A stretch of 64,000 nucleotides of DNA from Phallus indusiatus (lineage: Eukaryota; Basidiomycota; Agaricomycetes; Phallales; Phallaceae): positions 62,001 through 126,000 of the forward strand of contig JAQFWX010000005.1 of assembly GCA_027605045.1 (NCBI GenBank). The letters are read 5' to 3'. A program made the translations under genes and the position numbers. The notes below the pieces were generated by a model. The model saw nothing but the letters and a program-made list of their open reading frames with translations, was not told where the DNA came from and did no database searches. Of this stretch, positions 839 to 43,824 are shown in pieces. The stretch's first letter is position 1; the number at the start of each line of letters is the position of its first letter.

Positions 839-2788
839 ATGGACGCTGATGAACTCTTGCCGCAATTTGGTTCGGAGATACTGCAGTTTCAAGAATTCAC
901 TCGAGAGTCCAGGGCTGTCCGTTCGATGTCTTGTACGTTCTCTGTAGTTTATCAATGCCTTGTTGATTGTTAATGTGTTTCGTAGGCTCGATCCTTACCC
1001 TCATTTTTCTTGAGACAATATTCACGTTCGATAAAGAGGCGAGTTTCCTTAAGATTCTTTCTTTCCCGATGATTAAGTTGAGCACACTATTAGGTAAAAT
1101 ATATTTGGAGGTATGGGATTTTTTTAAATTTTTGCTCTCTTTGAGGTTCAGCGGCTCACTTTATGGTTTATCCTTCTAAGGCGTCCGTGGTCGTTCTTCA
1201 AAGTCTGTTTCCTAGCATGCAGATATTTCTCTGTAATACCAGTTCTGTAAGGCTTTTTACTGTTTTGAGAAGAGATTAATGCATAATCGATTCGCGATAG
1301 CATAACCATAGGTATGGACTAATTTCTCATTCCTGCATAAATTCTCAAAGAGTTGTCAGTCTCCTCTCAGGCTCCCCCGAGTAACATCGTGAGTATATGC
1401 TCTGAAATGTATATGCTTTGAAATTTTATATTGGAGCTGACCGATCCACCACAATGTTCAGTAGTAAGACCTTGGAAATGATACTTATCAAATTTGTAAC
1501 TTTGTTTTCACACAGTTGTCGATTTGAAGTATGGTACCTCGGACTGTGCGTTAGACTTCACAATGAAAAACCTCGCTCACTAACTTAAATCGATCGTTTC
1601 AGTGGCATCATAGTCGTCTCCCTTTCACCTAGCAGTGCTCTCTTAGCTATTAGACTGGATAAGTTATATGCCTCCAAGACGAGTACGCTTTGGCTGATCT
1701 GTTTACATACACCGTTTGTCTGACTGTCGGGTTTGTTCTCCAGTGCGCAGGGCGTTAATCTGTCTGGTATTGGGTCAGTTATTTGATTTTTCTTCTATGT
1801 TTATCATTATCAAACTATCTAACAGCTGAAGTTATTGTACGTTGGTTCACTACATATGTATCAGCTCGAATTCTACCTAACACTGGGCACAAGTCACAAA
1901 TCGGGGTTGCGATGTCATTTTTGCCCAAAACTAAATTCGTGTACAACACAGTTGTTCATGAATGCGCTGCAACTTTCTCTCAGTTTCAATGGCTCACCAA
2001 AAGCTTATCTATGTCAGTGCTTCAGATGATGCTCAATGTCTACTAATGCTTGTATAATAGGCTTCCATATCTGATAGTAGTCTGTACGTGATAATATCGC
2101 CTCCCATCATTTCAATGGGCAGTTTGACCTTCGGATATGATCAGGCATATATATATTTATTGCCTGGTATGCGTTCATTCGACATCGCCGTGAACAAGCA
2201 TCGTTGTCTAGTATACGGGCCGTGCGGAATAATTTTGCACCATTTTATATTCTTCTCATCCGAGATGGCGTACTCTGCTACATTATGTGAGCTTTTATGT
2301 TTGTTTATCGTCCTGCACCCAGGTTGCAACTCTAGCTTTGATAGTAATTTCTGTATGATCGTTTCATTACTTTACTAACTTGGCGTATATACTAATAGTC
2401 TTTTAGTAGGAATATTTGTCGGGTTTGTCATGTTGATAACGATTTCGAGTGAAAATGCATTGGCTGTGGCTCCTCCTGCGTACGTTCAAGAAATTTCATA
2501 CGTTCAACACAGAGGACATGTGCTCATAAATGATAATACTCTTTATACAGTATTGTCGTCGGGATAACGTCCATATCTGTTCGTCGCGCTCACATGTTCA
2601 GTCTCCGGTTTCTAATACTCTTTTTTCAGTGCTGTCGGCTAGCATTGCTTCTACAGGGCGATCCGGGACGTGCGATTGGGGTTTATCAGGCCGGGTTGAA
2701 TACTATTGAACTCCGCGTCGAGACGTTGAAGGATAGAAATTCAACTACGGCATCAGTTAGTACTTTTTGTCAGACTTATCAGAGTTAA
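839..2788 (+). CDS. DUF6533-like seven-helix membrane protein, array copy 1
   Basis: Predicted 324-residue membrane protein, function unknown. Exons: 839-932, 986-1038, 1094-1110, 1181-1246, 1301-1311, 1360-1388, 1462-1463, 1516-1545, 1603-1682, 1744-1773, 1826-1836, 1894-2012, 2061-2083, 2145-2286, 2345-2352, 2407-2479, 2551-2578, 2630-2788. They total 975 nt with no internal stop. The DUF6533 signature is visible: TFDKE ending exon 2, KYIWR over exons 3-4, then RPWSFFK and a CRY triplet. Later landmarks are WYLGL (exon 8), LLAIRLDKLYASK (exon 9), LLIRDGVLCYI (exon 14) and CCRLALLLQGDPG (exon 18). Helices fall in exons 2, 4-6, 8-9, 10-11, 13-14, 14-16 and 16-18. Intron 2 uses a GC donor (gcgagt at 1039), and exon 6 begins 6 nt further upstream than in the paralogues. 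An AT-rich element near 739-750 may serve as a TATA box. Family membership rests on motif reading only. Confidence 0.82.
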
Positions 2789-3611
2789 AGGAGATGTTTC
2801 TGTTCTGTCCGTTGTTGCGCGTACTAGTAGTCATCATGTTCGGCTTGAATGAACTGGAGGACTGAGTCCGATGAGTCATTGTCGACGGCGTGTTTGGAAT
2901 CTGAATAAACTAGATATGGATAATGTAGGCCAGGTTTCTCTTGCAGTCAGAAACAGGCAACACACCGAAAATTTCATTTGCTGTGAAACTTTTTGACGCT
3001 TGCAGATTCATCGCACTTTGGGCTAGTAAAAGTCCGCAAAATCCCAAGTCCCGCCGACGGACTACCGCGAATTTTGGTTGCGGTGACGCCGATCGCTTAC
3101 TCCGGGCGTCTTTCCTTTACTCTGTCACCACTGCAGGAAAATAACTATGATATTCATTGACCATTGATGTGTGTTGATACTTTAATCGTCGTTTTCCCTA
3201 TATAAACTCTTATCATGGTATTACAGTTAATGTCATCCAATGACAGGTGGGAGACCGAATATGAAAGTACGTTGACTTGTTTTTAACGAATTTGAGGATT
3301 GAACTCAGCGGCGCCCTAGAAGTCTGATAGTAGGTCGAGTAAGTCGAGAGTCGGATGCACTCAATGGCATCCCAGCGCTCATAATACGGGTTTATGTGCT
3401 CACACGAAGCGCAGCTCCAGAATCGAGGTGTCTGACGAAGAAACGTTTGGGATCAAACAACTGAGTTGTTCCTCGCTTTGATCAAACAACTGAGCTATTC
3501 CTCATTTTGGGCTAGCCCCAGTTCATCACAATCCCTGTGAATGATGCTCCACCCCAAAGTACTTAAAAACACAGCTCAATCTCATGCTTATTTTCTGCAT
3601 TACCTCGAGCG
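2789..3611. other. Spacer between array copies 1 and 2
   Basis: No coding signal seen; contains the 29-bp tandem repeat at 3451-3508. Confidence 0.55.
3451..3508 (+). repeat. 29-bp tandem direct repeat, two units
   Basis: Units 3451-3479 and 3480-3508 both begin GATCAAACAACTGAG and differ at only a few positions. They lie about 100 nt upstream of the start of array copy 2. Function unknown. Confidence 0.8.
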
Positions 3612-5502
3612 ATGGCTGGCTTCGACATGAACATAACCAGTAAACTAAATGTGTCAGAAACTCTAGAAGAAACGCAGCTGGTGACAGCCACACAACAGCT
3701 TCGAGCCCTTCATTCAATGTGTTGTGCGTCTCAGCTCTAGGAACGTAATCATTCAGAAAGGAAGATAATTATCTCTTGCGTAGATTGTATCCTTACACTC
3801 GTCTCACTTGAAATAATATCTACCTTTGACAAGGAGGTGAGTTCTTACGATCATTTCGTAGTAAAGCCTGATGTAATTCGTCTCAATAAGGTATTGTACA
3901 TTTGGAGGTAATTTGTCGTTGGTTGCTTCTACAAAGGACTCAACGTAAATTCTTTACATACAGGCGTCCTTGGTCCCTCTTCAAACTCCTTTTCGTACCC
4001 TGTAGATATCTTTCCGCTATACCGGCTCTGTAAGACTTCCATTTGATATAGCAGTCAAACTGATGCATATTCAATTGTAAATAGCCTCATATTAAGTGAA
4101 TACTCCTTTTTACTGTAGGAATAGCATCTCTGATGATTTTTAGTACCCCCCGCACCAAGTGATGCTGTGAGTAAATCCTCCTTAATTTATCACTTAGCTG
4201 ATTTGTTGATCTTAGTAGTAAGTGATCAACTACCTTAGCCAAATCAAAAATCCATGGTTTACAGCTGCGAATTTTTTGGTTGGTACATTGGTGTGTACGT
4301 ACGCGTGATTACCATTGTTTCTAAATCTCGCGACTTCAATGATAACATGCGTATTGTCATAATTAGAATTGGCATGGCTGTCACCACCTTCCCTGGTAGC
4401 TGTCTCTTGGCCATCAGGCTAGATTTATTATTTAAATCAAAAATAAGTAAGATTTTATGGCAATTTTGTACTTGTTTTCTGCTCAATTTCTATATCCAGT
4501 GCGCGCAGTATTGGTGACATTAGTGTTTCGTAAGTCATTATAAATATGGCATACTTCTCGCATTCGTTCATTGCTTTATTGATCCTTAACTCTTGACAGT
4601 TGAAATTGCTGTAGGTTTCGTCGTTACTATCATTAGCAACGTCGAAATTAACGTATTGCATCAGTCACAATTAGCAGTTACGCCGCTCGTTATATCCAGG
4701 GAATCCGTTGGCTATGCTTCGACCCCCTTTGGTGGTACTTGTACTGGACATATCTCAAATTCTACGTGGCTTCACGAAATTTTGCTTTTGTCAGTGTTTC
4801 AGTTATCCCTTGAGACAATTGAACAATTGATGTAGATTGATTTACATAGGGTTCCGTATCTAGCTATTATTTGTTCGTACTCGTTCGGTCATCATAATGT
4901 CTCAACGAGTTGATACCTCAAGTCAATAGGTGTATACATCGTCATTACCTGGTGTGCGTTTATACGACATTGCCGGGAGAAAACATTATTATCCACCATG
5001 CGGGTAGTGCGGGAAAATTTCGCGCCGCTTTATCTTCTTTTTACTCGGGATGGCGTGGTTTATTATATCATGTGAGTCGACGTGGCTTATTCCTCTGACC
5101 ACGATGATATTAAGATTTTATAGAAATTTTTGTATAATCTAACTCACTCGTTTTAAATACCGATACTGATAATCTCTCAGTCGGAATACTGTGTGGTTTT
5201 CTTTTCTTGTCAATTTCTTCCAGCACCAGCGCGTTGCTTTCTGCCGGTCCCCTGTACGTCTTTATGTAGCTATATAATTCATCAATTCACGAGTGATGGC
5301 TTGATAGCATGATTATTGGAATAACATCCATCTCCGTAAGTACAGTGTTTTCTTAAATGTCTCAGAAAGTAAAAATATTCTAACCTGTTTTTAAATTGGG
5401 TAGTGTTGTCGACTGGTGCTACTTCTGCATGGTGATCCGGAACATGCGACCGGGGTGTATGAACTGGACACAAATGAATTCTATGTTGAAATGAGAAATT
5501 AG
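3612..5502 (+). CDS. DUF6533-like seven-helix membrane protein, array copy 2
   Basis: Predicted 310-residue protein. Exons: 3612-3723, 3784-3836, 3891-3907, 3964-4029, 4085-4095, 4144-4166, 4216-4217, 4265-4294, 4367-4446, 4500-4529, 4600-4610, 4665-4789, 4850-4872, 4930-5071, 5124-5131, 5181-5253, 5308-5335, 5404-5502. The sum is 933 nt and all junctions are GT-AG. The start ATG at 3612 gives an exon 1 of the family size, with an NIT sequon in the presumed outward N-terminus. Exon 12 is 6 nt longer than in copies 1, 7, 8 and 9, which lengthens the loop between helices 4 and 5. Conserved landmarks include LYIWR, RPWSLFK, WYIGV, RDGVVYYI and LLLHGDPEHATGVYE. The C-terminal tail is short, ending soon after the HGDP motif. 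The gene lies 823 nt downstream of copy 1 in the same orientation and shows no disabling lesion. Confidence 0.85.
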
Positions 5503-6065
5503 TGGAGATATATAAGTTCGCTGATCTGTATCTTTTCAGTATTCTAGACATCCGATCGTTTCTGGTTTAGTGTCGACTTTAGATTAAACATGTTGTTATT
5601 TATTGTCTAACGATTCGTACTTGTTTGAATGTACTTCAAGGTATTATGATGCTCAAATTACGATGATGCTGAGCGCTGAAGCGCTGAAGGACGGCGGCCG
5701 GACTCCGGAGATGTGACCGACGCCTTTTCGTCTGAATCGTCCCCGTTCTTGTATCATGATCGCAACCTTGAACCATCTTGTTTTTGGCCCTGTGGTTTTG
5801 CGATATGCATGTCATTGAAATGCCAAGTGTTGAGCGACGTGGAACCCCCGTTTGCAATTGAAGTGCGACTCCCCCCAATTTGCAGAAGGAAGTAGGCCGG
5901 ATAACGCTCGAGTGTGTACGACAACGGTTTCATGGACGTATCTTCTTATCAATTAACTGACAAAGTTCGTATTTCGGAGTCGCTGTCCAAATTGCACATT
6001 GTGCAGTTCAAGCTCAAGAAAATCAGGCGCGGTTTGATTGGGGTTAACCACAAGGCCTTGCCAAC

Positions 6066-6135
6066 ATTTTTTCTGGTGAGCTCGAGTCGCAACAAGCCAT
6101 ATAATAATGCCATTTACTTAATTTGTGCCGTATGC
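6066..6135 (+). repeat. Partial duplicate of the copy 3 promoter segment
   Basis: The stretch GGTGAGCTCGAGTCGCAACA followed by an ATATAATA element and GTGCCGTAT parallels 6961-7023, just upstream of array copy 3. It looks like a duplicated 5' flank whose gene has been lost. Confidence 0.6.
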
Positions 6136-6561
6136 TAATGCAGTATTCTACACATTCTTTGCTATGTTCTATGTCCTCGCCCAACGCTACTAGTAGGAGT
6201 AACGTTGTCTGAATACTACGTCTCCACTCGTTTCAAGTTCGCCTCGTAACATTTCTATAAAAGGTCGCGTGAATTCAATGGTTTCGGTTATCACTATAGC
6301 CTATCAACACAGATGTTTCACAAGAGCTACACACGCAACTCGCCGTATGGCTGTTATGCGATTCCTGATGACGACGAGCGTCAAAGCGTCATCTTCAGTC
6401 TACCCCCTGCCAGGCAGTTTACTTTCCATGCTCTTGCTCAATCATCACCCTTTTCAAATCGTATCTTGAGCTTGTTAACCGCTTTGAATTGCAATACGTA
6501 GAAGAAACGGTCTGCCGTGGCAATCGAAGTCACCGGGCCTGGCTGTACGGTTGTCACGGTA

Positions 6562-6774
6562 TTGAGGCTATAACTCATGTGTTGACTTGTGCTGATTGCT
6601 ATATATACATGGTATGATTGTATTTCTATCTTCATAGATGGCTAATTAAAATATTTTATGCTGTTTGTATTTTACTGCTTCATCTCACATGACAGCCACT
6701 AGAATACCAATGGATTCTGTCAGTGACAAAGTTCTTTGATTTGAAAGAAATCAGTAACACAACTCCTACTGAGA
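6562..6774 (-). repeat. Inverted duplicate, copy B
   Basis: Diverged inverted copy of 1-259. Similarity stops abruptly at about 6562 on one side, whereas the other end fades near 6774 because copy A reaches the window edge. It sits in the spacer between array copies 2 and 3. Confidence 0.7.
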
Positions 6775-6995
6775 TGACAAGGTATATTCCTGCGCCAAAT
6801 TGTATTCACTACAGCGATCCGACCCCACGATCCAAAGGACCTTGCCGTGTCTGAAGACCTCTTAGAATCTCTCAGAGCATCAGGAGCTGCGGATATTTGG
6901 AGTTGCTGGAACACCTCAGGATAATTGATCCCAGTTTTGATCGCTCAATGATAAATATCCTTTTGTTTCTTGTGAGCTCAAGCCGCAACAGGTCA

Positions 6996-7002
6996 TATAA
7001 AA
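6996..7002 (+). promoter_or_regulatory. TATA-like element of array copy 3
   Basis: TATAAAA begins 79 nt before the ATG at 7075, within a segment that is duplicated at 6066-6135. Position and sequence suit a basidiomycete core promoter; not proven. Confidence 0.45.
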
Positions 7003-7074: not shown

Positions 7075-9000
7075 ATGTCCTCACAGAGTAATACGACTGC
7101 CACGTCTTCACCTTTGTTGGAGCAGGAAAAATTCCTACAACAGCTTTTCTCTACTCGTTCAATAGCTTGTAGGTTTTATTTCCCATGCCGACCATTGATC
7201 CGCAAAAGAAGATCTGAAGACTCGTTGTACAGACTGTCTTCTTACTCTCATTGTTCTTGAGATACTATTTACGTTCAACAAAGAGGTGAGCTTTACTCAA
7301 GGCACGTTGCGGCGTTGTCTCCGTACAGGATTCTTATCATCCCATCAGATAATATACATTTGGAGGTATTCCATTCATCCAAGCTTGTTTTATTTTGATC
7401 GGAGAATTCAATGAAACGGTACTATAAAGGCGTCCAGGCTGGTCCTTCTTCAAGGTCTTTTACATATTGGATATCTTCCCATTATCCCGACCCTGTAAAT
7501 CTTCTGCTTTATCTGTTGTGTTTTGCAACCGCTCATGCCCTATAGTATTGTAATAGGTAGACCCTTTTCTTCTGTTTTCGCACCGCGGTGATTTTGACAG
7601 CTATTAGTTCCTTTGGCGCCAAGCGATGCTGTGAGTATACTCATTACTGGCTTTCTCACTTCACTGATCCATTTGTTATGTTTAGTAGTAAGTAATCAGA
7701 TGGTACCGTCTTAGTTGATGTTATGAAGCTATGCCCTATAGCTGTATGTTTTTGGCGTGGTACCTCGGTCTGTGCGTAATATGCCTTGCGTATTTTTAAA
7801 AGATTGGGACTCACCACTGCGGGAATTTAATACTTAATGATCACAGTGTTAATACAATTTTTACTGTCTGGCCTAGTAGTTGCCTTTTAGCTATTAGATT
7901 GGACAGGCTGTACGCGTCCAAAAGCAGTAAGATGGAACGAAGTTTACATCACTATCTGTCAAATTGATCATTGATTGTTTTGTTTTTAGTTCGCAAGATA
8001 CTGATAACTTTAGTCCTTGGTTAGTTTTTTCCTCGTCTTTGTCCGTTTGAACGCTTATTTTTAGCTGAGGGTATTGTACGAATCCTTTGTTATTAGGTAT
8101 GCTTTGATTGACGGATGATCTTGCACCAGTCGATCCTAGCAGTTGGATCGTCCACTGTAACCAAAGAGAAACTGAGCTACGTTGGAGGGCCAGTGAACAA
8201 TTGCGTTGGACATGTCTCAGAATCCTTCTGGCTCGCCAAAAGTTTGATTTTGTCAGTGAAATTTCAATTGCCTTTTCTCTCATGAAATCTGAAAAAAATC
8301 AATTTGTTGTAGCCTCCCATACCTTAGTTTGGCTTGTGAGTATCCAGCATTATATCCTGACGTGTATACGCAACTCGAACATGATAGGTGTATACATTGC
8401 TATTGCCTGGTATGCATTTATTCGACACTGTCGGGAGAAAGCATCACTATCTAGCATCTGGGCTGTGCGGAAAAATTTCGCGCCTCTTTATGTCCTTTTT
8501 ATCCGAGACGGCTTAGTCTGCTACATTATGTAGGATTTGCAGTGTTCATCTTATTGGTATCCAGCCTCACACCCATGTTTTATAGTAACACTTGTATATT
8601 TGCTTCGCTTGAACCTCTCGCTAATACTAACGAATTTTAGTCGGTATACTGTTCGGCTTTCTTCTTTTGACGGTTCCTTCCAAGTCAAGCGAGCTGGTTT
8701 TGGTTGGTCCTGTGTACGTTATCGCATCCATCTTCGGTTTGATAAATTTGCTCATAACCTTTCATAGCGTAATTTCCGTAGTAACATCTATGTCTGTACG
8801 TCCTCACTTTAAAAATTCCATAATCAAAGATGCTCTAACCTGTTTCATCTCGGTAGTGCTGTCGACTAGTCTTGCTTCTTCATGGTGATCCAGGATATGC
8901 AACCGGGGTTTATGTAGATTCCACCGAAGTTCACGTCGAGATGATGAAGCTGGAAGAATCATCGACCTGTGCGTCTTTTGAAGCTCCAAGGGATGTCTAA
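7075..9000 (+). CDS. DUF6533-like seven-helix membrane protein, array copy 3 (exon 4 altered)
   Basis: Exons: 7075-7168, 7233-7285, 7349-7365, exon 4, 7546-7556, 7608-7630, 7686-7687, 7742-7771, 7847-7926, 7990-8019, 8065-8075, 8130-8251, 8313-8335, 8388-8529, 8586-8593, 8641-8713, 8768-8795, 8857-9000. All are intact except exon 4. The position homologous to the paralogues (7430-7494) gives 65 nt instead of 66, which shifts the frame. A CAG eight bases in allows an alternative exon 7438-7494 (57 nt) that restores the frame and still ends in YLPIIPTL, but it loses the WSLFK motif. With that splice the protein is 315 residues. The gene is therefore either functional through a shifted acceptor or a very young pseudogene; every later exon remains open. 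Landmarks include WYLGL, FIRDGLVCYI and LLLHGDPGYATGVYV. A TATA-like element sits about 75 nt before the ATG. Confidence 0.7.
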
Positions 9001-10784: not shown

Positions 10785-12809
10785 ATGAGCAGCATTAATG
10801 AAACCGAAATTATTCTGGCTTTACCAGAAATCGAAGCGTTGACGCAACGACTTCGGTACGTCACTTCAATATCTTGTAGGTTATCTGACACTTTTGCCAC
10901 CACAACATGCATGAAAAAGAATTGACAAGCTTTTGCTTAGGTTGTATTATTACGCTTATTCTACTTGAAATATTATCTACATTGAACGAGGAAGTGAGTT
11001 TCTGCGGACTTTTACGATGGGAATTCTTGCTGAACTTTATCAGATAGCCTATATTTGGAGGTAATTCAATAATTCTCTTTCTACTTGCGAGATCATTCAG
11101 AGCTCCCCCGAAGGCGACCTTGGTCACTCTTTAAGATACTTTTCATACAATGCCGGTATCTTTCCATCATACCCGCCATGTAAGGCTAGTTTATCAACGA
11201 CTATATTAATACTAACGCATATCTGACTTACAATACACAGCGTGTTAATAGGTAGATATCATTCTGTCCCCTTGCGGCTTTAATCTGAGAGATCAATAGT
11301 TCCTCCTGCGCCAAGCAACTCCGTGAGTACATTTATACTTAGTGGAGATTTTTTCGCTTTATTGATCCATTATTCTCATCTCCAGTAGTAAGCTATCGAG
11401 TGTTGTTTTTTCCAAGAAGACCTAATGAATACAACTATATAGCTGTTCATTTCAAGATTGGTATATGGGCCTGTATGTGTATATGCATGATTAATTCGCG
11501 AAACGACGCCTTTACTCACTCGCTTAACAGAGTTAATACATTTCTCACTCTTTCGGCAGGTAGTGCACTCCTAGCTATCAGGTTAGATAGATTGTATGCT
11601 TCCAAACGGAGTAAGGTTTTGTCTTGTTTTCGATGTTTTGCTCTCTAAATAGTTGGGTGTCTAGTGCGCAGAATATTGATAGCCTTAGTTTTCGGTCAGT
11701 CCCTCTACTTCCATGTTCATGAATACTTCAACAAGCCACAACTTTCAACAGTCGAAAATGCAGTATGAACTATTCTTTGCGACAAAAGCATTCCAGTTGA
11801 CGCTTTGTTTTGATAAGTTGCAGCTAGCGGCCTCAGTGTCAGTGTTACCCAAGTTTACTTTAATGTATACTCCGAACCCCTTGGGGATTCCCGCTGGTGT
11901 TTCTGGTTATTGTAATGTATTGAATGTCTCGAGATCACTGTGGCTTTCTAAGAGTTTTATTATGTTAGTGTTCAGATGTTTTCCTGGTTTTTTTTTTCGA
12001 CGCTTAACAGTCCGCTAGGCTTCCTTACCTGATTTTGGTTTGTAAGTATCCGGTACTAGTATCACAAAATATAATCTTGCTTAGTATGCAATTTGGCCCG
12101 CGTGATAGGCATATATATTGGCATCGCCTGGCATGCATTTACTCGACACCGTCGCGAGAAAGCATCCTTGTCTAATATCTGGGCCGTACGGAAGAATTTC
12201 GCTCCGCTCTATATTCTTTTCTTTCGTGACGGAGTAATCTGCTATATCATGTGAGTCTCACTGGTACTTATATATGTCCAAGCTTACAATGAGAAATTAT
12301 AGCAATTTTTGTAATTAATTCTCTCCTCTCCTAGTATGAATTTGTATTAGTATTAACCAGTCTCTAGTCGGGATATTGTGTGGTTTTCTCCTATTGACAG
12401 TTCCCTCCGGTATAAATTACCTGGCTTTGGTTGGCCCCGTGTACGTTCTCATGTAAGAACCTGCACTCAAAAAACTAATTATTTCTCGCAGTGTTATCAC
12501 TGGAATAACGTCCATATCTGTTTGTGGCGGTTTGCGTACTCAGGAGAGAAGATATTCAGCTGACTTGCTTTATCCTGATAGTGCTGTCGACTGGCGTTGC
12601 TTCTGCACGGTGATCCGGGGCATGCGACGGGGGTTTATCAGATGGACATAAACGAAGTTTGCGTCGAGGTAGTGGTGACGGAAGATCCCGAACCCACAGA
12701 TTTGCAATTCTTGGAAGAAGCAGAAGGATGTTTTGGTTTGTCTGCTACGGCAAAGCACAACAGACTCAATGATGAGGATGTCGGACTCGGACCCGTCGTC
12801 CATTTATAG
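10785..12809 (+). CDS. DUF6533-like seven-helix membrane protein, array copy 4 (long tail)
   Basis: Predicted 353-residue protein, the longest in the array. Exons: 10785-10875, 10941-10993, 11044-11060, 11114-11179, 11241-11251, 11300-11322, 11386-11387, 11443-11472, 11531-11610, 11665-11694, 11752-11762, 11818-11963, 12019-12041, 12109-12250, 12303-12310, 12368-12440, 12492-12519, 12582-12809. The sum is 1062 nt. Exon 12 is 27 nt longer than in copy 1, enlarging the helix 4-5 loop. The last exon carries an acidic tail about 40 residues longer than most paralogues, rich in E and D. Landmarks are AYIWR, RPWSLFKILFIQCRY, WYMGL, LLAIRLDRLYASK, FFRDGVICYI and LLLHGDPGHATGVYQ. The first exon-2 residues read TLNEE in place of the usual TFDKE. 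No frame lesion was seen. Confidence 0.85.
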
Positions 12810-14674: not shown

Positions 14675-16573
14675 ATGAGTACTATGACTGGTATCCTCGT
14701 GAAAATACAGGAGTTTCAAGCATACACGCAGCAAGAAAGGCAATCCCGCTCCATATCTTGTAATTTTCTAGTCCTTTCATGTCGAAAAGGGCTTCACGCT
14801 CGTTCAGGCTGTCTCCTTACTCTCATTTTGCTTGAAATATTGTTTACATTCGACAAGGAAGTGCGTCTTCATATTCCATCCTCATTACCATCATCTGGTG
14901 TGGAATTCTGAGAGTTCTTCCTCTTATAGTTAACTTACATTTGGAGGTGGACTCTACATAATGCTTAAACTTCAGTTCTCAGAGATTGACACAAGGTTTA
15001 TCGACAGAGGTTCTTGGTCTCTTTTCAAAACCCTCTTCATAGTATGCAGATACATACCCATTATACCAACACTGTAAGATTACGTTTAGTTGATCTCTGC
15101 CGCATTTCTCATTTTCATTAGTCTCATAATAAGTAAATGTCTCTATGTTCATCTTCCTAACAACATTCTGAGCGTCTCCCAGTTCCGCCTGCACCAAACG
15201 TTGCTGTGAGTATATTTACCCTTAGTTTCCTGTTACATGATTAAATCGTTGTTTCTAGTAGTAAGGAATTTAGCTGTCAATCATGTTTATCAGACCATAT
15301 TGACAAACTACGTGTATAGTTGTACATTCGTGTACTGGTATATCGGTTTGTGCGTAGCATTTTTTCGAATGATGTACCACAACAATTTTATTAAACAAAC
15401 TTCAGCATTCTTATAATTCTCTCCTTGTTTCCTAGCAGCGCGCTCCTAGCCATTCGGCTAGACAGGTTATATGCCTCCAAACCTCGTACGCATTTAATAT
15501 ATTCTAATTTGTGGTTTTGAATTAATTTTATTAGTTCGCCTGATATTGATCGCCCTAGTGTTTGGTAAGTCCCTCTGACATTTATTACTTCTATCATCAC
15601 CTAAGTTTCAACAGTTGAACTCGCTGTATGGATCATCAATGTACTGCAAATTTCGAAGACCTAGCTGACTTATAACTTCCTTTACACAAGTCACAATTAT
15701 CGGTAGCAGCAGTAACTCTGCCCAGAGCGGTCCCCACGTATGATTCTACGATCCATGCATGTGCCGGATCTATGTTACCAGAGTCATTATGGATTTCCAA
15801 ATCGTTGGTTATGTCAGTATCTCTGAATCATTGAACTTCTTCGAGAGTGGCTAATGATACGCAGGGTCCCATATTTGTTTCTAGTTTGTGCGTGTTTACT
15901 ACTTAATGTTAACCGCTGCTCTTGAAAAATGAGAGCTATGAATAGGCATATATATTAGTATTGCAGGATACGCCTTCGTTCGACAATGTCGTGAGAAGAT
16001 ATCTTTGTCCAACGTGTGGGCTGCACGAAGGAAATTTGCGCCGCTTTACATTCTATTCGTCCGTGATGGCCTAGGCTGTTATATCATGTGAGTCTTATAC
16101 ATACTCCGTAGTATTGGCAATGCTTATGGTTAAATCGTAGAAATCTCTGTATGTTTATATTTTACTCCTCAAACAATTTCGTCTATATTCTGACAGCGTG
16201 TAAGCTGGGATAATTTGTGGATTTATCCTACTCACAGTTATTCAGCCTACTAATGTTTTGTCTTTAACCGGTCCCGTGTACGTTCCCCTTCTCTTGGCAT
16301 ACAGTCAATGCCTGATAACAATTTACAGCATAATTGCTGGGATAACATCTATATCCGTTCGTTGCATTCATTCCCTTCTTCAGATGAAATTTAAAGTTCT
16401 GATAAACTCGTTCAACCCTTGAGTAGTGCTGTCGGCTAGCGTTAATTCTGCACGGCGATCCAGGACATGCGACTGGAGTTTATCAGTTGGACACCAACGA
16501 AATTCGTGTGGACGATGTTGAAATGTTGAACGTAGACTATTCAAATATCTCACCAACCTGCACATCCTGGTGA
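14675..16573 (+). CDS. DUF6533-like seven-helix membrane protein, array copy 5
   Basis: Predicted 316-residue protein. Exons: 14675-14759, 14808-14860, 14930-14946, 15008-15073, 15122-15132, 15183-15205, 15259-15260, 15320-15349, 15406-15485, 15535-15564, 15615-15625, 15691-15812, 15865-15887, 15946-16087, 16141-16148, 16205-16277, 16329-16356, 16427-16573. The sum is 951 nt. An in-frame ATG at 14612 exists, but a TATA-like stretch at 14604-14612 abuts it. The ATG at 14675 also gives the family-sized exon 1, so it is preferred. Landmarks: LLEILFTFDKE, TYIWR, GSWSLFKTLFIVCRY (proline of RPW replaced), WYIGL, LLAIRLDRLYASK, FVRDGLGCYI and LILHGDPGHATGVYQ. This is the last of the five evenly spaced copies; the next neighbour is the P450 gene. 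Confidence 0.85.
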
Positions 16574-22410: not shown

Positions 22411-24322
22411 ATGAACACAAGTAGTATTAGATCGAATGCATCTATTGAAGAAGACATATTGGCACTACAAGCACTCACACAACAACTTCGCTTGGACCGT
22501 TCAATATCCTGTAAGTCCTAATTTATCCTGTCGAATAATTCTGAAAAAATGAATCTTTGCCTGTATAATAGGCTGTCTTCTTACCCTCGTTCTGCTTGAA
22601 ATATTATTTACTTTGGACAAGGAAGTGAGCCTTCGCACTATGTCGATTCGATTTCGATTCGTTAGAACCTGCTCCCTATTAGATAGTATACATATGGAGG
22701 TAGGTCATCAATTTTCTCAATTTTCTCTCTTTCGAACACCAAATCTGAAGTTTCAAAGACGTCCTTGGTCACTTTTTAAGGTCTTCTTTATACAATGCAG
22801 ATATCTTCCGATGATCCCAATGCTGTGAGACCTCTATTACTACTCTCGAAAATGGGCTGAGCTTATTGATAATAGTCTTATAATACGTGAGTGTACTAGT
22901 TTGAACTTCTTACAGCAATATTTTAACAGTGGTTAGTTCCCCCGGTGCCTAATAATGCCGTAAGTTATATGTTTGATCTCCCTTCTGTTGATATTATTCT
23001 GAATCGAATTCTAGTAGTGAGACATCAATTTTTTCACCGCGTTGACTAGAGCTAGAGCATGAATCTATTAATTCGTAGCTGTGTGTTCTTTGAGTGGTAC
23101 ATCAGTTTGTGAGTTGAAATTTTCAAGGTGTTGCCGACGTTTTATAGGAAATCTAAGTATTACCACACAGCATCATTGTATTTGTCTCTCTCCTGCCTAG
23201 TAGCGGTCTCTTAGCTATTAGGCTGGACAGGTTGTATTCCTCTAAAACCAGTAAGCCGTTATCAAGACCTTGCATGCAATTTGCTTATCAATTCTTTTAG
23301 TGCGCAGAGTGTTGGTTACTCTGGTTTTCGGTCAGTGAAATCCTTTGTTCAATGAAATTCGCTTAAATCACACCCAAACAGTTGAAATTGCGGTATGAAT
23401 TCATTATACTAACCTGTTTATTATCATATGTTGACAGATACATAAAACCATCAAGTCACAAATGGTAGCTGCAATAGCTATTCTACCTCATTTTTCCCAG
23501 ATATACTACCCGCAGGTTCATATATGCGGCGGAAATGTCTCGAACATTTCGAATCCACTCTGGATTTCTAAAAATCTCATTATGTTTGTACATTCATTAT
23601 TTAATTGTCTATATATTCGAATTAAATGTTGCTATTTAGACTTCCATACCTGGTTTTGATTTGTATGGACCCACTACACATATTGTATGAGGAAACAACT
23701 GAACTGACAAATAGGCATATATATTGGCATTGCTACACATGCATTCATTCGACAATGTCGTGAAAGAAAATTATGGTGTAGAGTGGATGCCGTGCGGACG
23801 AACTTTGCACCATTTTACATTCTTTTCATTCGAGACAGCGTAGTGTGTTACATCGCGCAAGTTTTACATTGCTTTCAAGTTTGATTCCATCCAAAATTCA
23901 TGTTCTACTCTTTAGGAATCTTTGTATACTTTTCGTCCTTCCAATCTCTCTATCGTAATATGCTGATCGAATTTTAGTTGGGGTATTGTGTGGGTTTCTT
24001 ATAATAACAACGACATCTCGTCAAAGTGTTATGGGTTATGTTGGTCCCGTGTACGTCTTCACATAAATAACTGAAATTAGATTGAACTCATTAATTACAG
24101 TATAATTGTTGGAATTACATCTCTATCCGTTCGTCGCACATATATATTGAAAAGTAAGAATGCTAAATTTGCTTTTTCACTCAGAGTTGTCGATTAGCAA
24201 TGCTTCTGCATGGTGACCCGGGACATGCGACCGGAGTTTATCAGCTGGATACCAATGAAGTTCATATTGAGAAATTGGTATTGGAAGTTCCGGATGACTC
24301 GCCAATTTGTACGTACTTGTAA
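22411..24322 (+). CDS. DUF6533-like seven-helix membrane protein, array copy 6
   Basis: Predicted 320-residue protein. Exons: 22411-22510, 22572-22624, 22683-22699, 22759-22824, 22876-22886, 22937-22959, 23015-23016, 23079-23108, 23171-23250, 23301-23330, 23382-23392, 23456-23583, 23640-23662, 23715-23856, 23916-23923, 23978-24050, 24101-24128, 24185-24322. The sum is 963 nt. Intron 14 begins with a GC donor (gcaagt at 23857). The otherwise conserved RDG motif at the end of exon 14 reads RDS. The last exon starts SCRLAMLLHGDPG, with serine in place of the first of the usual two cysteines. Exon 12 is 9 nt longer than in copy 1. Landmarks VYIWR, RPWSLFKVFFIQCRY and LLAIRLDRLYSSK are intact. The P450 gene separates this copy from copy 5. 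Confidence 0.84.
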
Positions 24323-29966: not shown

Positions 29967-31835
29967 ATGGCGGTCTTTAGTTTACTGCAATTTACTCCCA
30001 TGCCAGGTGCGCTCAATGCATCTGAAGTACAGGCCTTGACACAATCTCGCGCTCTCAATTCAATATCTTGTAAGTCGTTCCTCATATAATTTTGAAATCC
30101 AACCAAACATTTGACATTTTCTCTAATTCTCAGATAGTATTATTACCCTCTGGGTCCTCGAGATAATATTTACGTTCGATAAAGAGGTGGGCTTCGCTTT
30201 GTATCACAAACAAGCTTTGTGTTTTATATGAATTTTCTTTGTCAGATAATATACATCTGGAGGTGAGGTACAAAAATTGATCTTCTCTTGTCTTAGTGAC
30301 TCAAACTTAACCTTTTCTGAAGACGTTCTTGGTCACCATTCAGAATATGTTTCTTGTGCTGCAGATACTTTGCTATAGTCCCTGCGCTGTAAGATTTTGG
30401 TTTGATTATTAGCTAAATAAACGCTAACCTACAACAGCCTTATCCTCAGTAGGTGTTATTTTCATCTGTATATCAACAATATTGTAATAGCGGCTACTAG
30501 TTCCCCCAGCGCCAAATAATACAGTGAGTGTGGACCTACGGTTTCCTATGCTCGAATTGATCCATAGGTTTATTCAGTAGTAAGATTGCAAAAACTCCTG
30601 TGCTCAAGAGTATATAAACCATGATTTTAGCTGCGAATTCCTAGAGTGGTATATTGGTTTGTACGTTGTAGTCTTTTTATTGACACTGCTTCTGCTTTAA
30701 CAATGCGGAACTATTTCAGTATCATCATTATTTTTTCTCTCCTGCCCAGTAGTGGTCTCTTGGCCATCAGGCTAGCCAAACTGTATGACTCCGCTTCAAG
30801 TATGAATCTGCAGAAATCCCTTGCATATCGTTGTTATCATTTTATCTGATTCTCTATTTACAGTGCACATAACATTGACTTTGTTGGTGCTTAGTGAGTC
30901 CAATGCTTTCGTTATTTGACTATGAGATTAATAAATTCCCAACATTTAATAGTTGAAACTTCTGTACGGATGCATACGTTTTGTACTATCTGCGCTGACT
31001 CATTGTTTCAATAGTCACAAGTAGGGACTGTGATGTCGGTTCTGCCAAAGGTTCGATCAACATATAATCCGGTTACCCGAGCATGCGCCACCAATGTTTC
31101 TAAATCTCTCTGGCTTTCCAAAAGCTTGATTATGTGAGTCATTTCAATGCTCTTAGATTGATCAACTGAGCAGTCATGATGCAGGGTTCCGTACATGATT
31201 CTACTTTGTGCGTGGTTAATCGGTTTTACTATGCCGTACTGCGTGTCTAATTTAATTATGACCAGGTGTGTATATTGGTATTGCCTGGCGCGCGTTCATT
31301 CGACACTGCCGCGAAAAAGCATTCCTGTACAGGGTGGGAGCTGTAAGGGAGAATTTTGCACCGTTATACATTCTTTTTATCCGAGACGGTGTAGTCTGTT
31401 ATATTGCGTGAGTCCTTTTTTCTCTTGACCCGACTCAACTGCACCCAGATCTGAGAACTCCGTTTTACTAGCAATTTCTGTAAATTTCTCTCTCATTCTA
31501 ACTAGGCTGGTCGTGTGCTAAAACTTTTCAGTGGGAGTCGTAGTAGGTTTTCTTATGCTGACGGCGTTTCCAAGCACAAATCTCCTGACTTTTGCTGGTC
31601 CCGTGTACGTTTTTGCATATACTAGTACGCATTCATCTATATATAGCTGATAATATTCCCAGTGTGATTGTTGGGATAACATCCATATCTGTTCGTTACC
31701 ATTCATTCTCAGACTCGCAGTGATTTAAATCTTTTTTTACAGTGTTGTCGATTAGCATTGCTTCTGCATGGCGATGCGAAACATGCGATCGGGGTTTATC
31801 AGTCAGACACCAGTGAAATCCGCCTAAGTGCATAA
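29967..31835 (+). CDS. DUF6533-like seven-helix membrane protein, array copy 7
   Basis: Predicted 303-residue protein. Exons: 29967-30069, 30134-30186, 30246-30262, 30323-30388, 30438-30448, 30501-30523, 30578-30579, 30631-30660, 30720-30799, 30864-30893, 30953-30963, 31015-31133, 31185-31207, 31266-31407, 31472-31479, 31532-31604, 31663-31690, 31743-31835. The sum is 912 nt. A second in-frame ATG at 30000 would shorten the N-terminus by 11 residues. Landmarks: FTFDKE, IYIWR, RSWSPFRICFLCCRY, EWYIGL, LLAIRLAKLYDS, FIRDGVVCYI and LLLHGDAKHAIGVYQ. The C-terminal tail ends about ten residues after that motif. Copies 7, 8 and 9 resemble each other most closely, for example in the SDTSEI-type tail, and form a subgroup. 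Confidence 0.85.
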
Positions 31836-37509: not shown

Positions 37510-38659
37510 TGTTAAAGACAGATTATTATCGTGTACTTCCGTTCCGTTTCGATGTGAATATGATTTGTGTCCACGCTTGTAATAATCCAGTGTGAAACCT
37601 CGTCATGTCTTAAGAGGCCGATGAATAATGTTAGCGCGTGTAGCCTTATCAATGCGCTGACCATACACACTGTGATGAGAACACAACCTTTTCTCAAGAC
37701 TTTCACCAAACATACCCTCCATCGTTTCTAAACCCAAGCAACAGAGAAGGGGTTTCAGGAGAACGCGCAACCGACAGCAAAGGATTGGACAAGACGTTGA
37801 CCATCGTTTCGCACCCAAAATGCTTTTTTCTTAGCTTTTAAGTGCTTGACAGATGATCGATGAACGTTTACGAGACGACCGCAGTTTCGCTGTCATAACC
37901 GGGGTCAGCCCAGGCGGCGGGCGCTAATAGCCATGGCACGCTCACCACAAGACGGTGACAGAAGAACCCTTGCACGGTCAAAGCGATTCATTATGACATT
38001 CTCGTCTTAGGCTAACTTCAGCTTGCTGTTCTGCATCGATCTGCATCCTGGGTTGATTTGGGAGATCATGTAATAAGGATGTCTCGTCTCGCATCGTCTT
38101 TCTTTTCTAGGCGAGGCGTTCTCGGTCCGTGACGCGGTGAAGTTAAAAGTTTTGACGGGTCTCTTTTTGTGATTTATCTCAAGTTGGCACAACGGTCGCT
38201 TCGGAACTATCGCTAGTTTATCAAAATGATGAACTTGAAAACGGCGGAGACTTCTCAATTGAGAACCTTCAAGAGTCAAGATTCTTCAAGTTGTTTTTGT
38301 TTCGAAAATACCCGCCCTATCAATGCTCGCATCGTTTCTGGTTGCTGTTGCGCTCTGTTGCGCCGTCCACTCCAATCATAACGTGTAATATTCACGTGTG
38401 CGAACTAACATCACCCAAACCGTGCCTTGGCTTTTTTTTTCATCTGGTTCTGGTGATCCGCTTGGGAGATCCTGTTTTAAACTGACAAGCCAAAATTGCC
38501 CAGATCAAGAGACGGTATCAAGTGAGAATTCCCCGTGGCGGTTTGGCGCTGTGCATTGGACTTCCCCACGAACTAGCCGTGGTTAGCTCCTTCGCATGAT
38601 GGGTTTTGTTATATAAAATGCTATCGTGACTCGTACGTTTCGATCGCTGTTGTACCACT
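37510..38659. other. Spacer before array copy 8
   Basis: Nothing recognised apart from the TATA-like element at 38612. Confidence 0.5.
38612..38618 (+). promoter_or_regulatory. TATA-like element of array copy 8
   Basis: TATAAAA starts 48 nt upstream of the ATG at 38660 in an otherwise mixed-composition flank. Confidence 0.45.
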
Positions 38660-40680
38660 ATGGACATGCTAGTAGGCTCGTCTAATACCAGCCTTGCATC
38701 CGATGCCTTAAAATCAGCTGCGGAACGAGCCGTCGTACAGTCCCGCGTTCTCCATTCAATAACCTGTAAGCCGTTTTCTATATAACAAGGAAGATTAAGA
38801 AAGGATTCGATAGGTTACTTCAACAGACAGCATTATGACTCTTTGTATTCTTGAGATCATATTAACATTTGATGAAGAAGTGGGTTTTATTTCTACATAT
38901 AGATGAAGTTCAAGTCAACGTAAAACCTCCCTTGTCAGGTCATGTACATTTGGAGGTGAGGAATCAGGAATACTATCCCCTTTTGTTCCAAAGACTCAAG
39001 AACACGGGACTTATCTGCTAGGAAACGACCTTGGTCTCTGTTCAAGGTCTGTTTCCTAAGCTGCAGGTATTATACAGTAGCATACTGCGCGTAAGATTTC
39101 AATATTTCCGAATGAGAGCTAAGTATGTACTGACTCAAGACAGCCTTGTCGTGAGTCAGTGTTATCTTCGTTCTCAGTCTAAGTGCATGTCCCACTAATA
39201 TGTTACAACCGGCGACTACTAGTTCCTCCTGCGCCAAACAACATGGTGAGTTGTATGGATGTGTAAATCTTGTCCCTAAATCTGATTCATAAAATTTATT
39301 CAGTTGTGAGCAAAGTTGATACCCTCCTCTTAACAGGGAATAGTTTTTTTGATTGATAAATAATAGTTGTGACTTCGTTGATTGGTATCTCGGCCTGTGC
39401 GTGGATGTCGCCGTTGCTTCTATAATTTCTATAACTCACTCTTCGCAGTACTATTATACTTTTCTCTCTTCTTCCAATTAGCGTTCTTTTAGCCATCAGG
39501 CTAGCTAAACTGTATGCTTCCACCTTGAGTATGACCTTGGATTTCTACACAATTCTTTCTTTGACAAACTGTCTCTAGTGCGCGCAATACTGACTTTTCT
39601 GGTGTTAGGTCGGTCAAGTCTTCTTGTTCCTTAATTATTAACCTGCTTAAATTCTGAGTATTTCACAGTTGAAGTTGCTGTACGAATTGATGCTCCATTT
39701 ACTCCAAGCCATCTTCATTGATCCATTACTTTTCCAGTCAGAAATAGGGATTGTGGTTTCATTTTTGCCCAAGTCCCGGACCACGTATGATCCAACTGCC
39801 CGTGCATGCATCCCCAATGTCTCAAAGTCGTACTGGCTCTCTAAGAGTTTGATTATGTCAGTGATATAACCTAAATTCCTTCCAAAACCAAAACTAATTG
39901 AAAGAATTTAGAATTCCGTACATTACCATTATCTGTGTGTAATAATTCGCTCTATCGACGCGCTGTGGAAACATAACGAACGAACTCAAACTCTGTCAAC
40001 TAGGTGTATATATCGGTATTGCCTGGCACGCGTTCACTCGGCACTGCCGAGAAAAGGCATTACTGTACGGAGTTGGAGCTGTGAGGGAAAATTTTGCTCC
40101 GTTGTATATCCTTTTCATTCGGGATGGTGTGGTTTGCTATATTACGTGGGTTCCCTTCTTCAAGCGCTTCGGTGCACACTTGATATAGGACTTTTTACAT
40201 TTTTTAGCAATTTTCGTAAAACCTCTTTCGCTTGAATCTTCCATGCTAGCCGTAACATACCAAAAATTTTTTAGTCGGGGCATTTTCAGGGTTTCTTCTG
40301 CTGACAGTTCTTTCCAGTAATAATACCCTGTCTTATGCTGGTCCCATGTACGTCCCATCAACAAGCTTAGTATACACTATATATGCTTATGTTTGATTTC
40401 TGCTATTTCTGGCAGTATAATCATTGGGATCTCATCTATATCTGTTCGTTATACTCCCGATCACATTTTCCGAGTTTGAGGGCTTTTTCTGACTGGGCTT
40501 CTTATCTAGTGCTGTCGATTAGCATTGCTTCTGCATGGCGATCCGGAGAACGCGACGGGAGTTTATCAATCAGACACTAGCGAAATTCACATAGGAGCGG
40601 AGTGGAACACGCCAATGAATATTTCCTCTTCAGATATTAACGGGGTCCATAGCAGCATTTCCACCAACGTATGTTTTTAG
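38660..40680 (+). CDS. DUF6533-like seven-helix membrane protein, array copy 8
   Basis: Predicted 331-residue protein. Exons: 38660-38765, 38827-38879, 38939-38955, 39022-39090, 39144-39154, 39223-39245, 39304-39305, 39367-39396, 39449-39528, 39579-39608, 39669-39679, 39738-39856, 39912-39934, 40004-40145, 40208-40215, 40275-40347, 40416-40443, 40510-40680. The sum is 996 nt. Exon 4 is 3 nt longer than usual because the acceptor lies three bases upstream, adding one residue (RKRPWSLFK). The 2-nt exon is TT here instead of TA, changing the encoded Tyr to Phe but keeping frame and an aromatic residue. Landmarks: MYIWR, DWYLGL, LLAIRLAKLYAST, FIRDGVVCYI and LLLHGDPENATGVYQ. A TATA-like element lies 42-48 nt before the ATG. 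Confidence 0.85.
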
Positions 40681-41924
40681 GGCGATGCTTTATTGTTTAC
40701 AAGTGCTGTAATATTTCTAAACATTGAAAAAATATTCCACTTTTTACATCGAACAGAAAGTCCGAATTCGTTTCCTGAGGGTTTTTTTGAATTCCAGCGC
40801 TCTCAACTTGGTCCTTAGGCTATGAGGAACGTAGAAGTAGGAACGGTCCTGAGGCCTGATGTTGGAATATGAGTTACTCCTGTATATAGTACTAGTCACG
40901 GCGCTTATATAGTCCACACCTTTGTGTCCGCTACTTCATCGTCCTGGGATTCCAACACCTGAAACCCTCTTCCCTCAGTTCACAGCTCAGCCGTCCATTA
41001 TAAATGTTACTATACAAAACAAGGTCATGTGATAAATTGGCTAAACATAACAAAGCTACGATCAGTGCCAGATGGTGTGAAAAAATATATGTAAGCACGG
41101 TGACGGGCTGTAAGACCACTCTGATTCAAGCAAATTGTAGATGTCATAAACTTTGCATACGGGAATATATGCGTATGTAACTGTATTTCTAGCCGACTAC
41201 CTTACTAGCTAGAGTCAATACTATGTACAGAATGAGATGGTCTGCGCACATCCGAGTGCTCAGCGAGATAAATCATCTACTAAATAAATCTGCGCAGTCA
41301 AGCCAACTTCGAGTTTAGAGCTCAACGCCGAACTGTGCCCATCAGGGCCATCACTTCCAGTGCCATGTGTTTCGCTTTCTCGTAACTTTTATCTCAAGCT
41401 AACAAAAAAAATTATCTCAAAACTTTCGCGAGCTCAAGATCATCGGAAGTTACACGCGAGGACCCCTCAACTGAAAACCTCACATGCCTGTTCTGATTCC
41501 GTGTCAATATTATAGTGTCGTTTGCAAATTAATTTTCCTCGGCTAACATCGCTTACCACCAAATAGAGTCTTAACCGAGGAACTAATTTGCAAACGGGTG
41601 TAATAAAAATTCCACTTGCATAGGCCATTGACATTCAGTAGTTTTAGTTGCTTTCGTGGTGATTCAAACTTATACCTAGTCGTTCTTAGAAAATCCGAAA
41701 AGACGACTGACAGAAAAACCTATCTGTGACCTGGATTTCATCAGAGATCGCTGATTTGATAAGTGAGGATGTAATCAACTGAGCAAAGGTCCCGATCCGC
41801 CCTTTCGGAACACGGGACAGCATGACACAACAATGTCGAAGATTTAAGAGTAAGTTCCCTCGAATGGTTTTTTTTTTTCAAAATCTCCCTCTAGATCTCT
41901 TTATTAGACCACATCTTTACTGTC
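40681..41924. other. Spacer between array copies 8 and 9
   Basis: Holds the imperfect inverted repeat at 41520-41595; no coding signal seen. Confidence 0.5.
41520..41595. repeat. Imperfect inverted repeat, arms about 25 bp
   Basis: GTTTGCAAATTAATTTTCCT at 41520 pairs with the reverse complement of the segment ending at 41595 (GTTTGCAAATTAGTTCCTCG), with a small gap, over a loop of about 25 nt. It may be a short MITE-like remnant upstream of array copy 9. Confidence 0.7.
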
Positions 41925-43824
41925 ATGAGCGTGTCTGATACATTCAATGCACCCGGGATCTTAATTTCGGAGGAATCAGCAATTCTTAAACAAGCCCGTT
42001 TTTTCAGTTCAATATGTTGTAGGCCGTTTTTCACCCAACACCTGAAGCAATTAAAAAAAGGCTTTAACGAGTTCTTCCGATTTACAGACAGTATCATCAC
42101 TCTATGTATCCTTGAGATAATATTCACATTCGACAAAGAGGTGAGGTTTTTTTAATGACAAATTTCACAGTGATAAGAGTTCTCTTTGTCAGATAAAATA
42201 TATTTGGAGGTAAGGCAGGAGTTCCGTTTCCTCTCGTCCAGGAGACTCAAACGCTAGAATTTTCCAAAGACGGCCTTGGTCTCTCTTCAAGATTTTTTTC
42301 ATAAGCTGCAGATACCATACAATATTATTTGTGGTGTAAGGCTTTAGTTTCTGAAAGACTGGACCACTAACACCGACTTTTGCTAGCCTCGCTGTGGGTG
42401 AGTGTTATTTTCGTGTTATTATGTACATAATGTATTATACTAACAAATACTCCAATGGCGACTGCCACTAGTTCCTTCTGCACCAAATCATACAGTGAGT
42501 ACGCACTGGTGATTTTTTGTTTATTTATTCATGAATTTATTCAGTAGTAAAAGGACCAACTATTCTGTTAATTTGGAAAGTGTTGATATTTAAACTGATA
42601 GCTGCGAATTCCTATATTGGTATCTCGGTCTGTGGGTAGCGTTCCATAACGTCACTGTTGCTTTGATATTAATAACACATTTATCATTGCAGCACTATTG
42701 TAATTTTCTCCCTTCTACCTGGTAGCGGTCTTTTGGCCATCAGGCTGGCAAACTTGTATGCTACCACCTTGAGTATGAATTCAAAATTTCTGCATTACTT
42801 TTTTTCTCTGACAAACGCTGAGCTCAGTGCGTGTAGTATTGACTTCTCTGGTGCTAGGTCAGTCGGGTCCTTTTGTTTCTTACAATTTATTGAAATTCCA
42901 AATTATCAACAGTTGAAGTTGCTGTGCGAGTCGCAGGAATACTTGTGCAGAATTAGCTTTGCTGAAGTATTATTTCTCTAGTCTCAAATAGCAGTTGTGA
43001 TGTCGTTATTGCCGAGGTCCCAGTCGACGTATAATTCGACCGCCCATACATGCAACCCCAATGTCTCAAAATCACTTTGGTTCTCCAAAAGCTTAATTAT
43101 GTTAGTCATAAAATTGCTTTCAGGCTCACGATGAACTGAATAGACACAGGGTTCCATACATTGTTCTTGTTTGTATGTAGTAATATCGTTTCTATCATTA
43201 CCATAGTACTAACTTCAAATCAGGCGTATATATTGGTATTGCCTGGCATGCATTTATCCGACACTGTCGCGAAAAAGCTTTGCTGTCTAGAGTGGGGGCT
43301 GTAAGGGTGAAGTTTGCTCCATTATACATTCTTTTCATTCGAGACGGTGTAGTCTGCTATATTACGTGGGTCTTTCCTTACTTCGGCTGCCTCCGATTCA
43401 TTTACCTTTAGTTTATGATAGCAATTTCTGTGACGTCTATCTCACTCCCAAGCCAATCATTGTGCTAAAAAATTTTCAGCGGGGCTCCTATTAGGGTTTC
43501 TACTTCTGACAACATTTCCCAGTACGGATATCGCGAATTCTGCTGGTGCCATGTACGTCTTAATTTGTGTTTACATAATAATTACAGTGCTGCTCGCTCA
43601 CCTGATAATGCTCGACAGTATAATTGTTGGGATAACATCTGTATCTGTTCGTTACTCTCTGAGATATTTTTTTTCGGCCATAGTGCATATAGGGATTCTT
43701 TGCTAATCTACTTCTCATTCAGTGCTGTCGATTGGCGCTGCTTCTGCATGGTGACCCAGGACACGCAACCGGGATTTATCAATCGGATACCAGTGAGATT
43801 CACATAGGAATGGAAAATTTTTGA
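41925..43824 (+). CDS. DUF6533-like seven-helix membrane protein, array copy 9
   Basis: Predicted 303-residue protein and the last array member. Exons: 41925-42018, 42088-42140, 42193-42209, 42270-42335, 42387-42397, 42472-42494, 42545-42546, 42602-42631, 42693-42772, 42828-42857, 42913-42923, 42982-43100, 43150-43172, 43224-43365, 43422-43429, 43480-43552, 43619-43646, 43723-43824. The sum is 912 nt, all GT-AG. Landmarks: LEIIFTFDKE, KYIWR, RPWSLFKIFFISCRY, YWYLGL, LLAIRLANLYATT, FIRDGVVCYI and LLLHGDPGHATGIYQ. It is closest to copies 7 and 8. The next gene downstream, a D-2-hydroxyacid dehydrogenase, is convergent, and its stop codon lies 474 nt away. No lesion was found. Confidence 0.85.

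Follow-up and report, generated by a model that had tools for sequence, protein, structure and literature searches.

Ultra-small internal exons are a known kind, as 1-nt exons have been published in plants and in Fusarium. In Fusarium, a 1-nt exon occurs in the CYP621A P450 genes and the same paper states that Arabidopsis, Drosophila and humans have exons of 2–5 bp (PMC12940212). The plant genes APC11 and VPS55 also contain 1-nt exons (PMC4674806, PMC8831610), and the one in Arabidopsis APC11 has been proposed to be spliced through intron definition together with recursive splicing (PMC4674806). Other fungal examples are the 3-nt exons of lipS from Dactylellina haptotyla (PMC5639578) and the exons of Phanerochaete P450 genes, which go down to 6 bp (PMC1184071).

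Here, we describe a 2-nt exon in a family of DUF6533 genes. It resembles the Fusarium exon in being fungal, in having been revealed by exon phases that do not fit, in being conserved throughout its family, in belonging to a codon spread over three exons within a conserved motif and in having RNA support, but CYP621A is an ascomycete P450 with a single nucleotide, whereas the present exon has two nucleotides, belongs to DUF6533, recurs at no fewer than 42 loci of one genome and encodes three different amino acids (PMC12940212). APC11 and VPS55 likewise have an ultra-small conserved exon between introns, although they are plant genes with few copies and the exon is of one nucleotide (PMC4674806, PMC8831610). 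In lipS and the Phanerochaete P450 genes, very small exons also occur in intron-dense fungal genes, but these exons are larger and the gene families are different (PMC5639578, PMC1184071). Fungal stwintrons share with the present arrangement the consecutive removal of adjacent introns (PMC12403724, PMC6616335, PMC5639578); in a stwintron, however, a splice signal of one intron is split by the other and no exonic base lies between them, whereas here the message keeps two bases. Taking the whole explanation together, we consider it very probable that this is a real internal 2-nt exon of a DUF6533 membrane-protein family and that its flanking introns are removed sequentially, more likely with intron 6 first.

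The window (the whole stretch of 64 000 nucleotides of Phallus indusiatus DNA that was analysed) contains nine tandem copies of a DUF6533 gene with 18 exons. DUF6533 is a basidiomycete family. The gene model was built from copy 4 and then fitted to the other window copies.

10785..12809, forward strand: array copy 4, DUF6533 gene of 18 exons, template model with a match to Pfam PF20151

The first 17 exons of copy 4 have sizes of 91, 53, 17, 66, 11, 23, 2, 30, 80, 30, 11, 146, 23, 142, 8, 73 and 28 nt and the last exon spans 12582-12809, stop included; very small exons (17, 11, 23, 2, 11, 23 and 8 nt) are numerous in this model beside larger ones. Modelled introns overall are 45–83 nt in length, which together with the gene family suggests a basidiomycete. 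Residues 30–73 of the copy 4 model match PF20151 (DUF6533) with 44.2 bits, compared with a curated cut-off of 24.1. For copies 1, 2 and 5 the model covers exons 2–11 and 14–18, with exons 12–13 left out, and in copy 3, where exon 4 has four bases fewer than in the copy on contig C137, exons 2–4 are not fitted by the model. Rfam and ARAGORN scans produced no match. A pattern search returned four TTTAGTAGTAAG matches close to DUF6533 exons but on the strand opposite to them, and the two that were inspected have similar surroundings.

The 2-nt exon is exon 7 of the model and is located as follows.

1462..1463, forward strand: exon 7 (TA), 2 nt, array copy 1 (locus L036), from sequence and frame enumeration
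4216..4217, forward strand: exon 7 (TA), 2 nt, array copy 2 (locus L035), from sequence and frame enumeration
7686..7687, forward strand: exon 7 (TA), 2 nt, array copy 3; its C137 counterpart (L026) matches ORF P0001
11386..11387, forward strand: exon 7 (TA), 2 nt, array copy 4 (template gene model), from sequence and frame enumeration
15259..15260, forward strand: exon 7 (TA), 2 nt, array copy 5; the interval holds a second 2-nt option, CT-GTCAAT
23015..23016, forward strand: exon 7 (TA), 2 nt, array copy 6, from sequence and frame enumeration
30578..30579, forward strand: exon 7 (TA), 2 nt, array copy 7; ORF P0003, identical at 204/204 aligned residues, supports its inclusion
39304..39305, forward strand: exon 7 (TT), 2 nt, array copy 8, from sequence and frame enumeration
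42545..42546, forward strand: exon 7 (TA), 2 nt, array copy 9; donor GTAAA

The nine positions given by the original prediction were all exact when the sequence was re-read. Its core was recovered as AG-TA-GT in eight copies and AG-TT-GT in copy 8, but the GTRAG donor that it had assigned to every copy is present in eight of the nine, copy 9 being the exception. The flanking introns are of normal size, as had been claimed (49–73 nt for intron 6 and 47–62 nt for intron 7 in the nine window copies), and the gene models agree with the proposed phasing, in which the phase-0 end of exon 6 leaves exon 8 two bases short. Copy 7 has the following arrangement.

30501..30523, forward strand: exon 6 of array copy 7, ending in phase 0 (gene model and ORF P0003)
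30524..30577, forward strand: intron 6 of array copy 7, 54 nt, GTGAGT...CAG (gene model)
30580..30630, forward strand: intron 7 of array copy 7, 51 nt, GTAAGA...TAG (gene model)
30631..30660, forward strand: exon 8 of array copy 7, the first base of which completes the Tyr codon and is followed by the Cys codon (gene model and ORF P0003)

The total interval between exons 6 and 8 amounts to 98–127 nt in the window copies. The introns around the exon had been described as unalignable and, once trimmed, they are indeed no more alike than shuffled sequence, with mean pairwise identities among the window copies of 0.56 for intron 6 and 0.54 for intron 7 (0.55 when shuffled), whereas exons 8 and 9 reach 0.69 (shuffled 0.60) and 0.67 (shuffled 0.58), respectively. 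Thus, the core has not simply been carried along by recent duplication. In dinucleotide shuffles of each exon 6–8 interval, an AGNNGTRAR core arises by chance in 0.5–2% of cases per copy; the product over the nine copies is ~1e-18 under an assumption of independence that does not hold. The whole genome of 67.2 Mb contains 383 AGTAGTRAG sequences on the forward strand and 386 on the reverse strand. With the exon 6 donor and the exon 8 acceptor held fixed, enumeration of in-frame open internal exons of up to 40 nt in the nine copies left the 2-nt exon as the sole candidate in eight of them; copy 5 has one further 2-nt option, CT-GTCAAT, besides TA.

Searches of the organism's own genome (67.2 Mb in 206 contigs) gave 40 and 22 places, which, with the best candidates scored, resolve into at least 42 distinct modelled loci; a weak match containing a stop (L040, C151:60759), to which no model could be fitted, was regarded as a relic and dropped before this count. 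A peptide from exon 4, searched against the genome, matched at 37 places; each lies no more than 1.4 kb from a member of the set of 42, and none lies elsewhere. The 2-nt exon 7 is present in all 42 modelled loci (of at least 42 in the genome), bounded by AG and GT and flanked by introns of 47–73 nt. The early gene models had the 2-nt exon in their template, and the conservation therefore rests not on them but on the frame enumeration, the survey of the 42 loci and the mapping of ORFs described below. In 32 of the 42 loci, no in-frame open internal exon of 60 nt or less exists besides the 2-nt exon, while the other ten each have one further such exon on paper. The encoded residue is Tyr in 33 modelled loci, Phe in seven and His in two, and the codon formed with the next base is TAT in 20, TAC in 13, TTT in seven and CAC in two. 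The loci fall into two clades, close (24 loci) and diverged (18 loci), which are ~1.6 changes per site apart; in the tree both receive 100/100 support, and their branches measure 0.98 and 0.61 changes per column. Across this tree the letters of the exon vary and its size stays at two, with TT having at least two origins and CA one.

Many of the loci are near-identical pairs on different contigs (e.g. C151 and C137). Such pairs look like two haplotypes, in which case the number of distinct genes would be perhaps about half of 42. Four other DUF6533 loci (L006–L009, two near-identical pairs) were read by hand; in these, one intron seems to end four codons before a Cys and this reading gave no sign of a 2-nt exon, so that the split is apparently not general for DUF6533. 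As to the origin of the split, our guess is that intron 7 may have been gained two bases after an older phase-0 intron.

Protein searches with the copy 4 model found six ORFs and those with a profile found nine, including the same six, giving a total of nine. Each comes from a short public contig with the source label lgn, and the evidence consists of conceptual translations. All nine map to loci of this genome in blocks that are separated by gaps of either one intron or two introns combined. Eight of them (P0001–P0003 and P0005–P0009) span the exon 6–8 site, whereas P0004 begins downstream; the residues encoded at the site are listed here.

ORF P0001: C137 counterpart of array copy 3 (L026), Tyr
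ORF P0002: C137:52414, Tyr
ORF P0003: window array copy 7, Tyr, 204/204 residues
ORF P0005: C24/C142 gene, in which the exon reads CA, His
ORF P0006: C165, Tyr
ORF P0007 and ORF P0008: both C24, Tyr
ORF P0009: C150, Tyr

Every spanning ORF has the exact exon 6-7-8 peptide of its own locus, with exactly one extra residue between the last residue of exon 6 and the Cys (Tyr in seven, His in one), and in each the stretch of genome skipped at this point has the combined length of introns 6 and 7 (54 + 51 = 105 in copy 7). The contigs of P0003 (1163 nt), P0005 (1580 nt) and P0007 (1472 nt) cannot be genomic, because the mapped ORFs extend over longer stretches of the genome (1617, 1943 and 1890 nt, respectively). 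P0003 reads on into unspliced intron 15 and P0009 into unspliced intron 8, and the end of P0002 seems to lie in intron 14; these three cases look like the work of a plain ORF caller on partly spliced RNA and not like the output of a splice-aware gene finder. As read from these translations, the 2-nt exon is present in mature RNA. The original prediction had placed the two nucleotides as the first two bases of the codon just before the Cys, and a residue is present there in all eight translations; it had also named a cDNA with a single intron and another acceptor, or with a larger exon, as evidence to the contrary, and these RNA-type ORFs point the opposite way in eight of eight cases.

The same ORFs bear on the other geometries by which the interval could be spliced. 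If any donor and acceptor are allowed, each window copy offers between two and 12 in-frame open single-intron combinations, and five of the nine (copies 1, 2, 5, 6 and 7) have one from the unshifted exon 6 donor, so one can draw a single intron that starts at exon 6 and uses an upstream acceptor, the AG-TA-GTRAG core then being a chance or intronic element. These options vary between copies, however, and with the unshifted donor four of the nine have none; the insertion that a single intron predicts for copy 7 is absent from P0003, in which 204/204 residues fit the 2-nt model, and the single-intron reading is contradicted at the eight loci of P0001–P0003 and P0005–P0009. We regard it as extremely improbable. 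An AG and a GT two bases apart do look like a ratchet point, and consecutively removed stwintrons are known in fungi (PMC12403724, PMC6616335), but a stwintron or a zero-nucleotide recursive splice site, which would keep no exonic base, is very improbable here: loss of both bases breaks the frame and the residue is kept in all eight ORFs. With this residue retained, the site differs from a stwintron, in which a splice signal is interrupted and no base lies between the introns. At a zero-nucleotide recursive splice site AG and GT adjoin directly within a long intron and nothing is retained; the present sites retain two bases in an interval of 98–127 nt in the window copies. Finally, the extra residue could be ascribed to slipped splice sites or to editing instead of TA, for which we found no supporting evidence; with a donor slip of +2 the residue would be Val (GTN) and with an acceptor slip of −2 it would be Ser (AGT or AGC), neither of which occurs in the ORFs, while the observed Tyr (seven) and His (one) are those predicted from TA or CA at each locus. 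The probability of this reading is close to nil.

We infer that the 2-nt exon is spliced in by two successive steps. Both of its short flanking introns are ordinary GT-AG introns, which would be recognized by intron definition. The acceptor of intron 6 and the intron 7 donor, being two bases apart, lie within one U1 footprint. Two spliceosomes presumably cannot occupy them simultaneously, and the introns would have to leave one after the other in a recursive-like manner. Consecutive removal has also been suggested for Arabidopsis APC11 (PMC4674806). Removal of intron 6 first, the more likely order, would place exon 6 plus TA beside the intron 7 donor. The exon provides two bases of the Tyr, Phe or His codon before the conserved Cys, and its omission shifts the frame. 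The acceptor of intron 6 scores higher than that of intron 7 (medians of 7.2 and 5.1, respectively) and CTRAY, a motif resembling a branch site, is present in 50% of intron 6 sequences (13% when shuffled), compared with 21% for intron 7 (16%) and 29% for other introns (16%); on sequence grounds, the stronger acceptor and the CTRAY enrichment mildly favor intron 6 first. The equal donors of the close clade (medians of 8.0 and 7.8, with intron 7 as strong) and the non-independence of the copies count against this order. In the diverged clade the intron 7 donor is weaker (median 4.5 versus 7.9), and over all loci, which are not independent copies, the intron 6 and intron 7 donors are not clearly different in strength (p = 0.054). 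In P0009, introns 6 and 7 have both been removed while intron 8 is retained.

A stronger version of sequential removal is that the whole family relies on an obligate two-step splicing, in which intron 6 leaves first in every message and so builds the intron 7 donor, with the exon kept for a very long time; we put this forward tentatively, as possible but rather doubtful. It is unlikely that inclusion of the exon is regulated, with skipping acting as a built-in off switch through truncation of the protein. Skipping in copy 7 would give a frame-shifted product of 111 residues, and a regulated microexon has been reported in Trichoderma Xlr2 (PMC11121469), but the intron 6 splice sites are strong and the skipped form was not found by a protein search, which also missed P0009 that it should have found. 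ORF searches favor intact frames, which limits what they can say about how often the exon is skipped.

The codon can be placed on a predicted structure. The AlphaFold2 model of P0001 is of low confidence, with a pLDDT of 66 and a pTM of 0.62. In this model (pLDDT 66), a helix of residues 89–122 starts beside Tyr91-Cys92, and strands 155–159 and 165–169 form a hairpin after helix 4 that holds Cys166. Among the 50 matches listed in a comparison with the PDB, class A GPCRs come first, with TM-scores of about 0.3–0.43 and none at E ≤ 0.001. Class A GPCRs have a seven-helix fold with one Cys starting helix 3 and another in the loop after helix 4. The residue of the exon 7 codon is predicted to stand directly before the conserved Cys that opens the third helix, and a disulfide at that Cys would, if the model is right, explain why a frame error at the site has zero tolerance.

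In the part of the literature covered, we found no 2-nt exon in a basidiomycete and none that is common to a large, deeply diverged family with changing letters and constant length. An exon of two nucleotides is one of the smallest known and a natural test case for the splicing of tiny pieces, since exon definition cannot cope with exons of one or two bases and gene finders easily overlook them; the annotation of this site may be wrong in relatives from other mushrooms. In a fungus whose introns are short, these genes as a family open three points to direct testing: the order of intron removal, the minimal needs of an exon and how close a 3′ splice site can lie to a 5′ splice site. If the obligate two-step reading is true, they would offer dozens of natural replicates in which the letters change and the length stays constant.

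The genes of the array are divided to an extreme degree. Besides the 2-nt exon, they contain one exon of 8 nt (exon 15; 12303-12310 in copy 4), two of 11 nt, one of 17 nt and two of 23 nt; exon 6 of copy 1 measures 29 nt, compared with 23 nt in copies 4 and 7. A GC donor (GCGAG; window 1039-1044) seems to be used after exon 2 of copy 1. In copy 7, the matching ORF of a short public contig (P0003) starts upstream of the modelled exon 1 and shows a further 48-nt gap, which suggests an additional intron at the 5' end.

The array extends upstream, just left of the window, to one more copy, the tenth (L037; C151:58167), which also has the 2-nt exon. A degenerate relic (L040; C151:60759) lies on the other strand in the same region. 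A parallel array is present on a second contig of this genome:

C151:58167-105363, array that includes the window genes, ten copies
C137:52414-89604, parallel array, nine copies (one fewer than on C151)

The C137 array looks like a second haplotype of the C151 array. Exon 4 of copy 3 (window 7440-7500) lacks four bases relative to its C137 counterpart (L026), and the frame of copy 3 is therefore broken; L026, which is the match to the public ORF P0001, is intact at this site.

Elsewhere in the genome, TTTAGTAGTAAG recurs ∼1.1 kb from DUF6533 exons at four places:

C2:163745, strand opposite to the DUF6533 exons
C112:700158, strand opposite to the DUF6533 exons
C192:57003, strand opposite to the DUF6533 exons
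C140:2664417, strand opposite to the DUF6533 exons

Its surroundings are alike at C2 and C112, the two places that were compared. Genome-wide, there are at least 150 DUF6533 domain matches (the best 150 of 973 candidates scored); since this number is capped, the family is larger than it indicates.
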